From Kribbibacterium absianum (GTDB lineage: Bacteria; Actinomycetota; Coriobacteriia; Coriobacteriales; Atopobiaceae), in NCBI RefSeq assembly GCF_030067705.1, contig NZ_JASJEX010000003.1:310001-374000 (forward strand): a DNA stretch of 64,000 nucleotides, read 5' to 3'. This document shows, one piece after another, positions 9,294 through 33,056 of the stretch; the first letter of the stretch is position 1, and every line of letters begins with the position of its first letter. Below the pieces are notes generated by a model that saw nothing but the letters and a program-made list of their open reading frames with translations, was not told the origin of the DNA and searched no databases. Position numbers and translations under genes: made by a program.

Positions 9294-9947
9294 ATGGAAT
9301 CACTGCGCATTGCTGACGTCCAGCTGTTCGAGGGCGTCGCCAACGAGGACGCAGACGTGCTGGCTCGGGAATTGCAGGTGCGCACCCGCGCTTACGACAA
9401 GGGCGAGCGACTGTTGCGCGCGGGACAACGGGTTTCGCGCGTGGGCATCGTGCTTGCCGGTCGCGTGCTGATGGAGGGACCTGGCGACGCGGGCGATGTC
9501 ACGGTGATGGGCTGGGCCTCACCGGGCGACTCTTTTGGCGAGGCCTACGCGATGCTCGGCGACCGGCCGTTGATGGTGGACGCGACGGCCGTGGAGCCGA
9601 GCGTCGTGGCGTGGCTGTCCGTCGACCACCTGTGGCGGCAGGCGCTGGAGCAGGGGGATTCGGCGGCGGCGCAGGTGCTCCGCAACCTGATGCGCCTGAC
9701 GGCCGAACGCAACGTGCGCCTGTCGCAGCGCGCCCTCCACACGGCGCCGCGCACGGTTCGCGGGCGGCTCCGTTCGCTTTTTGCGACCCTGCCAACAGAC
9801 TCGGAGGGTTGGGTCACGTTGCCGGTGACGCAGGGCGACCTGGCGAACTACCTGAGCGTCAACCGCAGCGTGCTGTCGAGCGAGCTGGCGGCCATGGTGC
9901 GCGACGGCGAGGTCGAGCGAGACGGCAAGCGGTACCGGATCGGGTGA
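9294..9947 (+). CDS. Crp/Fnr-family transcriptional regulator
   Basis: A 217-residue regulator read from ATG 9294 (CAGGGGG upstream). The cyclic-nucleotide-type beta-roll occupies about 20-120 (GERLLRAGQRVSRVGIVLAG, PGDSFGEAYAML). The winged helix-turn-helix is at about 165-210 (VTQGDLANYLSVNRSVLSSE, DGEVERDGKRYRIG). No Fnr-type N-terminal cysteine cluster is present. Being divergent from hcp with a palindrome between, it probably activates hcp in response to NO or redox stress, as HcpR does in other anaerobes; this is inferred from context. Confidence 0.93.
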   Translation: MESLRIADVQLFEGVANEDADVLARELQVRTRAYDKGERLLRAGQRVSRVGIVLAGRVLMEGPGDAGDVTVMGWASPGDSFGEAYAMLGDRPLMVDATAVEPSVVAWLSVDHLWRQALEQGDSAAAQVLRNLMRLTAERNVRLSQRALHTAPRTVRGRLRSLFATLPTDSEGWVTLPVTQGDLANYLSVNRSVLSSELAAMVRDGEVERDGKRYRIG

Positions 9948-9972
9948 GGCGGCGTGGCGTTCGCGCGGACTC

Positions 9973-10462
9973 GTGCGCCGCAGAGGTCGAGCCGATCGGA
10001 GAATCCGAATGGTGCCCCGCACAGGTTGCTCTATCCGAGGCGCGCGAGCTGTGAGTCGCACAGGTCGTCCGTCTCGCGCCGTGCGCCGCACAGGTCGCGT
10101 TTCCCGATCCGGGGAACTCGTGCAGCGCACAGGTTGTCGGTGCTGACCTATGCCGCGCACAGGTAGTCGGCGTCGAATCGCGTCCGATTGTGTGCCGCAC
10201 AGGTTGGCTCCCTCTGATCGTGCGCCGCACAGGTCGGGGCTCCCGATCCGGGGAACTCGTGTAGCGCACAGGTCGCCCGCCTCGGACTCGTGCCACGCAC
10301 AGGTCGCGATTCTCGTTCTAAGTAACCAGTGCCACGCACGGGTCGAGCCGATCGGATAGCCCGAGAGACGCGCCGCACAGGTTGCCCTATCCGGGGCGCG
10401 CGAGCCGTGCGCCGCACGGGTCGCGTTTCCCGATCCGGCGAACCCATGCCGCGCACGGGTTG
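9973..10462 (+). repeat. Array A: 14 copies of a GTGC-N3-GCACAGGT core at 30/39-bp spacing
   Basis: The core GCACAGGT (or GCACGGGT) begins near 9980, 10019, 10058, 10088, 10127, 10157, 10197, 10227, 10266, 10297, 10336, 10375, 10414 and 10453. Steps are 39 or 30 bp, with two one-base deviations (40, 31). Each core is a small palindrome, GTGC-N3-GCAC. Spacer segments also recur (CGCGTTTCCCGATCCGGGG about three times; CGAGCCGATCGGA twice). In one plus frame the units read CxAQV with a 10- or 13-residue period, interrupted by three stops and two frame slips. It fills the gap between the Crp/Fnr gene and the acetyltransferase; no ordinary gene lies here. Confidence 0.85.
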
Positions 10463-10585: not shown

Positions 10586-11035
10586 ATGGACATCATCGAG
10601 CTTCACGAATCGCCGGATCGAGCCCATTGGCTCGCCGAGCTGCAACGGTGCGACTGGTCGGCCGGCCAGCACCTGGCCGAGATGGTCGCGGAGGGCGCGC
10701 TCGGGGCGGTTCTCGGCGAGGGCACCCGCATTTTGATGCTGGTGGACGGCGAGCGGCTCGTCTCGTTCTGCACGCTGGCCCCGCAGGACGACATCCGTCC
10801 GACGGATCTGGGTCCCTGGGTCGGCTACGTGTACACGTCGCCGGACTATCGCGGGCGCGGCTGCATGGGTCGCCTGCTGGGCGAGGCCGAGCGGCGCGCG
10901 AAGATGGCCGGGGCCGCTCGGACGCACATCTCCACAGGGCACGTGGGCCTCTACGAGAAGCATGGGTACCGGCTGTTGACGACGATGCCCAACGTCAAAG
11001 GCGAGGAGTCGCGGGTGTACGTGAAGGACCTGTAG
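10586..11035 (+). CDS. GNAT-family N-acetyltransferase
   Basis: A 149-residue acetyl-CoA-dependent acetyltransferase. Motif A is YTSPDYRGRGCMGRLLGEAE (RGRGCMG binds the CoA pyrophosphate), followed by ISTGHVGLYEKHGYRLL, the typical C-terminal strand and helix. ATG 10586 is preceded by GGAGGA. The substrate is unknown. It lies directly downstream of repeat array A; another GNAT gene adjoins array B. Confidence 0.88.
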   Translation: MDIIELHESPDRAHWLAELQRCDWSAGQHLAEMVAEGALGAVLGEGTRILMLVDGERLVSFCTLAPQDDIRPTDLGPWVGYVYTSPDYRGRGCMGRLLGEAERRAKMAGAARTHISTGHVGLYEKHGYRLLTTMPNVKGEESRVYVKDL

Positions 11036-20350: not shown

Positions 20351-20383
20351 GTGAGACAGTCTTGAGAGACAGGACTGTCTCAC
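20351..20383. repeat. 33-bp palindromic element R1, locus 1
   Basis: GTGAGACAGTC and GACTGTCTCAC are perfect 11-base arms around TTGAGAGACAG. Length and ends match the R1 elements at 22195, 23620 and 49347, although the centre differs (TTGAGAGAC instead of TAAAGAGACGA). It lies between array B and the zinc-ribbon gene. Confidence 0.8.
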
Positions 20384-20430: not shown

Positions 20431-20655
20431 ACGTGTGCGCTGCACAAGTGTGCGAGATCGGAAAACGCGACTTGTGCCACGCACGGAACAAGAGGGGAGA
20501 CCTGTGCGTGACACAAGTCCCCCAGCCCGGAAAAGACAATCTGTGCGCGGCACCTGTTGAACTCTCCGATCAGGACAACCTGTGGGCGGCACAAATCCGG
20601 CGTCCTGACATGTGCGGCGCACAAGTCTGTCGCCGCAACCTGTGCGTGGCACGAG
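20431..20655 (-). repeat. Array B: seven copies of a TGTGC-N3-GCACA palindrome at 30/39-bp spacing
   Basis: TGTG cores start at 20434, 20473, 20503, 20542, 20581, 20611 and 20641, steps of 39, 30, 39, 39, 30 and 30 bp. The fuller palindrome is ACNTGTGC-N3-GCACANGT. Read on the minus strand it matches array A in core and spacer: CGCGTTTTCCGATC here, CGCGTTTCCCGATC there. One minus frame stays open through all seven units and reads CHAQV, CAAHV, CRPQV, CRAQI, CHAQV, CVAQV and CSAHV with a 10- or 13-residue period. No ribosome binding site precedes it. 20234-20430 holds only the R1 hairpin. Confidence 0.85.
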
Positions 20656-20736
20656 CCCATGACTGGGCCGGATCCCGACCTGGTGGGCGACCAGGGCACC
20701 CGGCTCGACGCCGGCCGCAAGGGCAACATCGCTCGA

Positions 20737-21165
20737 TCACTCGGCCTCAACGGAGGGCGAGCGCTCGCCCAGCTTCTTCATAAAGTAATGGTGCGTGTGG
20801 CCCTCGGGCGCCGGCAGCACGGCCGCCTCGGTGTATCCCAGCTTGTGGTACAGCTCGGGCCCCTGGAAGCTGTAGGCGTCGAGCATGATGCGCGACATCC
20901 CGGCCTCGATGGCCTGCTCCTCCAGGTGCTCCATCAGCGCCGTGCCGAGCCCCTGACCCCGGTGCCCCTCGTGCACGTAGAGGTAGCGGACCTCGAGCAG
21001 GTTGTCCGAGGACTCGGCCACCACGCCGCCCACCAGCCGGTCGTCCTCTTTGGCGGCGTAGCTGAAGTCTCGGAGGTCGCGCATCGCGGCGGCGCCATGC
21101 TGCCCCCGGAGGGCTCGTTCGCGCCCCTCGCCGCTGGTGGAGACGATCTGCACGGTGTCGCTCAT
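20737..21165 (-). CDS. GNAT-family N-acetyltransferase
   Basis: A 142-residue acetyltransferase. Motif A is YLYVHEGHRGQGLGTALMEH (RGQGLG loop for CoA), followed by ISRIMLDAYS-type strand 5 and a YHKLGYTEAA motif B. ATG 21165 follows GAGAGGGG. The preceding segment (FSYAAKEDDRLVGGVVAE) is the usual strand pair. Substrate unknown. Array B follows directly downstream on the same strand, paralleling the GNAT gene after array A. Confidence 0.88.
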   Translation of the reverse strand: MSDTVQIVSTSGEGRERALRGQHGAAAMRDLRDFSYAAKEDDRLVGGVVAESSDNLLEVRYLYVHEGHRGQGLGTALMEHLEEQAIEAGMSRIMLDAYSFQGPELYHKLGYTEAAVLPAPEGHTHHYFMKKLGERSPSVEAE

Positions 21166-22361: not shown

Positions 22362-23633
22362 ATGAACATCACCCGTCGCGCAGCGCTGGCGCTGGCCCTG
22401 ACTGCCCCGCTCGTCGGCTGCGCGCCTGCCGACGACGCGCCGGAGGCCCTGGCCTCCACCGTCCTTGCCGAAGCCAAGGAGCCGCAACAGGCGGCGGCCG
22501 CCCCCTCGGACGAGGCCGTCGCCGCCTTCTGCGGTTTCGCCCGCGACCTGCTCCTCCAGCTTATGGCCGAGAGCCCCGGCACAAACGTGGTGTGCTCGCC
22601 CGTGTCGGCGTTGTTCGCGCTCGGCCTGACGATGCAGGGCGCGAGCGGCGAGACCCTGGCGCAACTTGAGACGGCGCTTGGCCTCACGCAGGCCGAGGTG
22701 CTCGACCTGTGCGCCGCCCTTCTTGCGACGGCCCCCGAGCACGAGGGTGTGAGGGCGGCCAACGCCGCGTGGGTCTCGGAGCAGGCCGGCGCAGGGATTT
22801 CGCCGGACTTCCTCGAGCTGGCGGCCCGGGACTTCTCGGCCAGCGTCTACTCCGCCCCCTTCGACGCCACCACGGTGGCCGACATCAACGCGTGGGTCCG
22901 CAACGCCACCGACGACAAGATCGAGCGGATCATCGAGCAGCTCCCCAGCGACAGCCAGCTTGCGCTGGTCAACGCCCTGCTCTTCAAGCAGGCCTGGGCG
23001 GAGCCCGTGGACGCGGCCAAGCTCGCGGACGGTGAGACCTTCACGGCTGCCGACGGCTCCACCAGCGAGGTCACGATGATGGGTCTCGGGCGCCAGGGCT
23101 GGCGCGACGCCCCCGGGCTCTATGGCTTCGCAAAGTACTACGAAGACGGAGGCTTCCAATTCACGGGGCTGCTCACGGAGGACGAGGGCCAACCGCTTGA
23201 GGACGCGCTCGCCCCGCTGGGCGACGCCCAGCTCGCCGCTTGCTTCCAGGGCCGATCGATCACCGATGACTGGTACGAGGCCGACGCGTACCTGCCCCGG
23301 TTCTCAGCTTCCCTCTGGACATCCCTGGTGGACGCGCTCCAGGCGCTCGGCGTCACGGACGCGTTCGATGGTGGCCGGGCACAGTTCCCCGGCATTGCCG
23401 AGGGACTGTTCATTGGCCAGGTTCAGCACGCGGCGACCATCGACGTGGACGAGGAGGGCACCGAGGCCGCGGCCGCGACGGCAATCGCGATGAACTCTTC
23501 CGCCTCGGCCACTCCTGACCAGCCCATCGTTCGAGAGGTGCGCCTCGACCGGCCATTCTTCTACGCGGTCGTGCACGCGGACAGCGGCGTGCCATGGTTC
23601 CTCGGCGCGAACGTGACGGGTGAGACATTCTAA
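22362..23633 (+). CDS. Serpin lipoprotein (serine/cysteine protease inhibitor)
   Basis: A 423-residue serpin with a lipoprotein signal (LVGCAP, C20). Serpin marks include NVVCSPVSALFALGLTMQGA near the start, ALVNALLFKQAWAEP in the middle, and the reactive loop hinge EEGTEAAAATA, followed by the exposed loop (MNSSASATPDQ) and RPFFYAVVHADSGVPWFLG at the end. The alanine-rich hinge predicts an inhibitory serpin; the scissile bond is probably within MNSSASATP. Anchored outside, it would guard the cell against host or competitor proteases. Its TAA lies in an R1 element. Start ATG 22362 follows AAGGAG. Confidence 0.95.
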   Translation: MNITRRAALALALTAPLVGCAPADDAPEALASTVLAEAKEPQQAAAAPSDEAVAAFCGFARDLLLQLMAESPGTNVVCSPVSALFALGLTMQGASGETLAQLETALGLTQAEVLDLCAALLATAPEHEGVRAANAAWVSEQAGAGISPDFLELAARDFSASVYSAPFDATTVADINAWVRNATDDKIERIIEQLPSDSQLALVNALLFKQAWAEPVDAAKLADGETFTAADGSTSEVTMMGLGRQGWRDAPGLYGFAKYYEDGGFQFTGLLTEDEGQPLEDALAPLGDAQLAACFQGRSITDDWYEADAYLPRFSASLWTSLVDALQALGVTDAFDGGRAQFPGIAEGLFIGQVQHAATIDVDEEGTEAAAATAIAMNSSASATPDQPIVREVRLDRPFFYAVVHADSGVPWFLGANVTGETF

Positions 23634-23737
23634 AGAGACGAGATTGTCTCATCCCCGGGACAGTGAGACAGTCTAAAGAGACGAGATCGTCCCATCCCCG
23701 GCGAGTGAGACACTCTAAAGAGACGAGATCGTCCCAC
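23620..23737. repeat. R1 elements, locus 3 (three tandem copies)
   Basis: Copies at 23620-23652, 23663-23695 and 23705-23737, with periods 43 and 42 bp (about four helical turns). Ends are GTGAGAC and GTCTCAT or GTCCCAT/C, the centre CTAAAGAGACGA throughout. The serpin TAA (23631-23633) lies inside the first copy, exactly as in degV. Confidence 0.88.
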
Positions 23738-23762
23738 CCCCCCGGCGCGCGGTCGCTCGCGG

Positions 23763-32942: not shown

Positions 32943-32945
32943 CCC

Positions 32946-33056
32946 TGGACGCTTCGGAGAGAGCCCTTTGTCCACGCCTGGACGCTTCGGAGAGAGCCAT
33001 TTGTCCACGCTCTGCTCGGGTGCAGCGTGGACAATAAGCTTTGACGCAAGCGTCCA
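32946..33056. repeat. R2 palindromic elements, locus 1 (three copies)
   Basis: Two plus copies (32946-32974, 32979-33007) have TGGACGCTTCGGAGAGAGCC at one end and TTTGTCCA at the other. A reversed, more divergent copy is at 33028-33056. The array starts four bases after the phosphoesterase stop and ends 65 bp before metG. The same element recurs at 61187-61331. Confidence 0.85.

Follow-up and report, generated by a model that had tools for sequence, protein, structure and literature searches.

The array A locus

The window, i.e., the whole 64-kb stretch of DNA that was analysed (C3:310001-374000), is part of a genome of 2.18 Mb in 7 contigs. It holds two arrays of short palindromes, here called A and B, which lie among the following features (window positions):

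9294..9947, + strand: Crp/Fnr-type regulator (cNMP_binding + HTH_Crp_2), upstream of array A
9969..10460 (C3:319969-320460), + strand: array A, 14 palindromic cores, 19-mers of the form ACCTGTGC-NNN-GCACAGGT with the right half conserved
9988..10007: example of a 20-nt long spacer (39-bp step), CGAGCCGATCGGAGAATCCG, which recurs at 10344-10363
10066..10076: example of an 11-nt short spacer (30-bp step), CGTCCGTCTCG
10586..11035, + strand: GNAT acetyltransferase, downstream of array A
20431..20656, - strand (mostly opposite orientation to A): array B, 7 cores at steps of 39, 30, 39, 39, 30 and 30 bp
20737..21165, - strand: GNAT acetyltransferase, with array B just beyond its 3' end

Array A begins 22 bp past the stop of the regulator gene, its units all lie in one orientation, and it is a 'solo' array, i.e., it adjoins no partner gene. 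The cores start at 9969, 10008, 10047, 10077, 10116, 10146, 10186, 10216, 10255, 10286, 10325, 10364, 10403 and 10442, and the recomputed steps (39, 39, 30, 39, 30, 40, 30, 39, 31, 39, 39, 39 and 39 bp) are identical to those given by an earlier, sequence-only reading of this DNA. The 15-mer core stated in that reading is exact in five of the 14 cores, the remaining ones carrying one or two changes, and the higher-order spacer pattern that it described is borne out by two internal repeats, one of 95 bp occurring again at +356 (81%) and one of 85 bp at +139 (82%). The 20-nt long spacers have a consensus of about CGCGTTTTCCGATCSGGNNA, readable in either direction. With at most two mismatches, GTGCNNNGCACAGGT has 39 matches in the 64-kb window versus 10.2 (sd 3.4) in dinucleotide shuffles of it, and none of 100 such shuffles reached 39.

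Six arrays in one genome

The same palindrome, CGACCYGTGC-N3-GCACAGGTCG, makes up six arrays in the genome, A to F, with 59 cores in total. Besides A and B, these are:

contig C1 near 301920-302150: array C
contig C1 near 303418-303690: array D, with ppaC as a neighbour
contig C1 near 339913-340438: array E
contig C4 near 216863-217317: array F

All six are intergenic, and arrays E and F start past sequences that look by eye like terminators. Array B can be aligned to A in inverted orientation (72% over 169 bp), and the orientation in array F alternates (> 39 < 30 > 39 <). The 53 steps over the six arrays comprise 19 of 30 bp, one of 31 bp, 24 of 39 bp, four of 40 bp and five sums of 69-79 bp. 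Outside the arrays, one-mismatch matches to the core number 12, versus 13 for a reversed control pattern, and a 60-position sequence model run over the whole genome found no seventh array. Thus, the unit exists only in arrays.

The sequence-only reading had pointed to related genomes as the place to look for the core with 30/39 spacing; neither the paired-core pattern nor the sequence model found a match in the 139 other genomes of the bacterial family. Among the family genomes searched, the array repeat family is therefore limited to this genome, and no array lies at the ppaC locus in the relatives examined. Paired-core matches in Solihabitans, Micromonospora, Nocardioides and an uncultured Clostridiales contig were only tandem repeats, judged to be chance picks, and viral contigs contained no paired cores.

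Anatomy of the unit

The aligned units give a consensus of about CGACCYGTGC-N3-GCACAGGTYG, in which the half GCACAGGT is near-invariant and the other half is loose. Units orient either way. A 39-bp step consists of the core with a 20-nt spacer built around TTTTCCGATCSGG in either direction, and a 30-bp step has an 11-nt, mostly pyrimidine-rich spacer. The two fixed step sizes and the palindromic cores noted earlier are both present in the arrays.

Ancestral coding of a CxAQV peptide repeat had been suggested from the step sizes, most of which are multiples of three, and frames do stay open through arrays B, C and D. However, in TGC-NNN-GCA-CAG-GTY the wobble bases are conserved like the rest (over 59 units, A of GCA 94% and G of CAG 86%), which already refutes this reading; the frame is broken by the 40- and 31-bp steps, no start is conserved, and a palindrome gives the same motif on both strands. 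The CxAQV motif is what the palindrome yields when translated, and the steps are divisible by three because the spacing is fixed at 30/39. The arrays are not decayed copies of a gene, and we consider a decayed protein-coding repeat scarcely credible. The earlier suggestion of a DNA or RNA role holds for its DNA part, given the base-level conservation, and is weak for RNA. A transcribed, structured RNA with repeated hairpins would account for folding beyond that of shuffled sequence in A (z -4.6) and F (z -6.5), but low z-scores are expected from palindromes alone, E folds like shuffled sequence (z 0.05), pairing of the outer left arm with the near-invariant right arm is not maintained (no covariation), and an Rfam search matched only a tRNA, all of which renders this reading highly improbable. 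A CRISPR array was rejected as well, since the spacers recur, the repeats vary, there are two step sizes and no cas gene is among the annotated neighbours.

Other repeat families

Other palindromic repeats occur in the same genome and in other genomes. Five different RAYT-like genes (L044-L048), each with its own REP palindrome, are present in this one 2.2-Mb genome. Two copies (33-bp step) of the REP GGACGCTTCGGAGAGAGCCATTTGTCCACG, which flanks the RAYT gene at C1:174277, lie at window 32944-33010, and another pair is found upstream of L165, a paralog of the nuclease gene described below. A palindrome family of about GTGAGACA...TGTCTCAC is tandem with a 42-bp period at window 23620-23741 and occurs as single inverted pairs at window 20351-20383 and at L009 6831-6863. 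In a relative (G018, L111 9640-9980), an intergenic array of TCTTTCGCAC / GTGCGAAAGA with about 29-32-bp steps is inverted mid-array and gene-free inside, and in Nocardioides alpinus (L038 1540-1900) ACCTGTGCCGCGCACACAAGCGACAGGTCGGC units of about 32 bp form an intergenic tandem array beside an array of GACCTGACGCTTRCGCGCACGCAACACCC units.

A nuclease-like gene between arrays C and D

Of the six arrays, C and D resemble each other most closely (78% over 166 bp, ungapped and direct), and they bracket a gene:

contig C1 301920-303683: array C, nuclease-like gene, array D; the sole array copy with a gene in the genome
L009:4361-5392: the gene between C and D (the C-D gene), 343 aa

The C-D protein has no Pfam, NCBIfam or PADLOC match, and no methylase or immunity partner adjoins its gene. 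Its family has 10 matches in this genome and is present in 129 of 140 family genomes, with no homolog in the 64-kb window or in viral contigs. In an alignment of 23 homologs, E202, D247 and E259 are invariant and H266 nearly so. The C-terminal half matches PF18741 REase_MTES_1575 in 11 of 23 family members (best 8.6e-5) and DUF559 in five of 23, these matches being weak and most of them under the Pfam curated cut-offs. The family profile also matches 3r3p_A, 'Mobile intron protein' (E 8.7e-4 over 58 positions), which we take to be I-Bth0305I. I-Bth0305I is the exemplar of the EDxHD homing endonucleases (PMC3943268). We therefore read the C-D gene family as predicted multi-copy nucleases of the PD-(D/E)XK type.

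Matched flanking repeats across the family

The flanks of a gene were scored as matched when its two 500-bp flanks had at least five 11-mers in common. In a first sample, 27 homologs chosen by protein similarity alone were compared with 143 ordinary ORFs, and matched flanking repeats were found for 15 of the homologs versus eight of the control ORFs (p=4e-9). A second sample of 20 fresh homologs and 66 control ORFs on the same contigs gave 12 versus two (p=6e-8). Among ppaC control loci, one (L054, 490 common 11-mers) was excluded as an artefact and the other 16 had at most two. The nuclease gene family is thus very probably associated with matched flanking repeats. Counting against our preferred explanation, 20 of the 47 homologs lack matched flanks by this test; the test undercounts, however, as L144 scores zero because its arrays begin more than 500 bp away.

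The repeated words that flank relatives of the C-D gene usually differ from the C-D word, and they differ both between paralogs and between orthologs. For example, L144 has GTTGTTCACGTCG units repeating every 31 bp on both flanks, dozens of them, L146 is flanked by 69-bp copies that are 99% identical, L152 by 136-bp direct copies, L155 by units at 64-bp steps, and L164, a paralog from this genome, by units at 63-bp steps. Own words are likewise found for L142 and for the paralogs L160, L162 and L164 of this genome.

The paralog L160 (C2:155227-156237) is flanked by the word TTGCGGRGAANNNNTTCYCCRCAA, which has 62 and 59 matches on the two strands of this genome versus 0 for the control. The copies are mostly clustered, with steps of 38/39 and 105/106 bp, and sites of this word family are found at G000:C2:154814-156417 and about 25 other places. 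As the L160 word is dispersed, this genome contains two paralogs that each possess a separate family of solo clusters, and array A is in keeping with a solo member of the family formed by array C, the gene and array D. Dispersal is not universal, which counts against the preferred explanation: by a strict pattern, the word arrays of G046 occur only around the gene.

Turnover of words at fixed loci

At one syntenic site, four species of a single genus share the same nuclease gene (L188, L191, L152 and L149), and the flanking DNA there is 73-81% alike. In L152, L188 and L191 the gene is kept at this position and the words are replaced on both flanks; the words of L152 and L188 differ between the species, yet the two flanks of each still match one another. 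Only L149 and L152, whose proteins are 92% identical, have their word set fully in common, and a simple correlation of protein identity with common words gave little. These comparisons suggest that words turn over faster than the nuclease proteins. As the gene seems to stay put at the syntenic loci, the gene as a mobile unit is unsupported there. Both flanks also change together in RAYT/REP pairs (PMC2817692); the joint change seen here is alike and goes further, in that whole words are replaced.

Origin of the arrays

Our preferred explanation sees array A as a copy lacking a gene ('solo') among REP/BIME-like intergenic palindrome arrays whose partner is a predicted nuclease. The nuclease, probably as a dimer, would recognise its own palindrome and nick or cut within the arrays, and repair from sister array copies would then extend them and homogenise their units. 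Such copying repair could keep the two flanks matched and seed clusters elsewhere, and recombination between direct flanking clusters could leave solo arrays such as A, B, E and F. The fixed steps may represent either the copied unit or the spacing needs of a bound multimer. An observation against this explanation comes from the relative G018, where two array copies enclose an MT-A70 methylase and a BglII-like restriction enzyme (L107 1-3200; word CTTGCGGTGTAC, about 170 bp duplicated, the word being arrayed also at L115 near 5700), showing that other genes can sit between matched arrays. We give the mechanism as a whole about an even chance.

Three other origins were weighed against it. The arrays could be ordinary REP/BIME repeats spread by a resident Y1 (RAYT) transposase, the nuclease gene having merely landed between two of them. 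The genome has five Y1_Tnp genes, all of them flanked by palindromes of their own at about 30-33 bp; in the REP of one of them (L047), the inner GTGC-CAC-GCAC resembles the array core; and BIMEs are made up of REPs that are regularly spaced and alternate in orientation (PMC2817692), as do the units of array F. However, the array palindrome does not flank any of the five resident RAYTs, the array unit has none of the isolated copies that a REP family would be expected to show, and the outer left arm of that unit is degenerate. Its consensus also lacks the GTAG/CGTC tag described for REPs (PMC3733652), and the nuclease gene family is tied to matched repeats in many genomes. We thus regard spread by a RAYT as unlikely. 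It is similarly improbable that a host DNA-binding protein (a nucleoid, segregation or regulatory protein, in the manner of sopC or BIMEs) uses the arrays as binding platforms and sets the spacing by its geometry. The dyad conserved at base level with one strong half-site, the strict 30/39 spacing that persists through diverged spacers and the intergenic positions, past terminator-like sequences in E and F, would all suit such a platform; restriction to one species, however, is expected of selfish repeats rather than of a core chromosomal function, there are no singletons, and the bracketing of a nuclease gene by arrays is a layout that recurs with other words. Finally, the repeats could be operators or recognition sites that control a restriction- or toxin-like defence nuclease, with solo arrays titrating it or marking self DNA. 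The PD-(D/E)XK family and the restriction-modification cassette between duplicated arrays in G018 are in line with this, but the C-D gene has neither a defence-system match in PADLOC nor a methylase or immunity gene beside it, and solo clusters far from the gene are left unexplained; a defence role is accordingly quite improbable.

More broadly, and tentatively, with a chance that we put a little short of even, the preferred explanation may extend to a widespread, undescribed class of PD-(D/E)XK nucleases, numbering about 10 in most genomes of the family, each making and maintaining its own palindromic arrays, with specificity and word turning over together and the 30/39-bp arrays among the products. 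If true, the REP/RAYT arrangement would have been invented a second time, independently of HUH enzymes. Such a further gene family, unrelated to RAYTs but with the same layout, would offer an origin for repeat arrays that have no RAYT. It would also supply natural pairs of nuclease and word in large number, about 10 per genome in more than 100 genomes, from which the specificity code could be deciphered, as well as a model for a nuclease and its genomic sites changing together on both flanks at once, and it would explain an array that resembles a decayed gene.

Comparison with known systems

The EDxHD/Vsr-like homing endonucleases (I-Bth0305I, PDB 3r3p) are like the C-D family in the invariant E and D and near-invariant H and in a gene that lies amid putative recognition sites, and a profile match suggests the same nuclease superfamily. 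In contrast, the C-D family is not inside an intron or intein, its sites are multi-copy intergenic arrays, and its protein has an extra N-terminal region. DUF559 and REase_MTES_1575 are alike in their weak Pfam matches to the C-terminal half (five and 11 of 23 members, respectively), whereas most members of the C-D family fall below the Pfam cut-offs. In the open-access papers searched, nothing relevant turned up that links either DUF559 or MTES_1575 to palindromic repeats or to mobile elements, and the present pairing of gene and repeats is not described there.

In plasmid centromere arrays of the sopC type, an inverted repeat is present in each of about twelve 43-bp units. The arrays described here likewise consist of repeated units with an inverted repeat, whereas they are present in six chromosomal copies and have two step sizes.

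RAYT genes are known partners of bacterial palindromic repeats. Like REP/BIME-RAYT systems, the arrays are short intergenic palindromes, often in regular clusters in which there are two linker lengths and units of either orientation, and the partner gene is flanked by its own palindromes, the words being specific to gene and species. Unlike in those systems, the partner here is a PD-(D/E)XK-type protein rather than a Y1 transposase, the GTAG/CGTC tag is absent, the arrays have 7-14 units with no singletons, and the C-D flanks are direct array copies rather than two inverted REPs. Thus, the arrays and their gene resemble a REP/RAYT pair and depart from it in the partner gene, the tag and the missing singletons.
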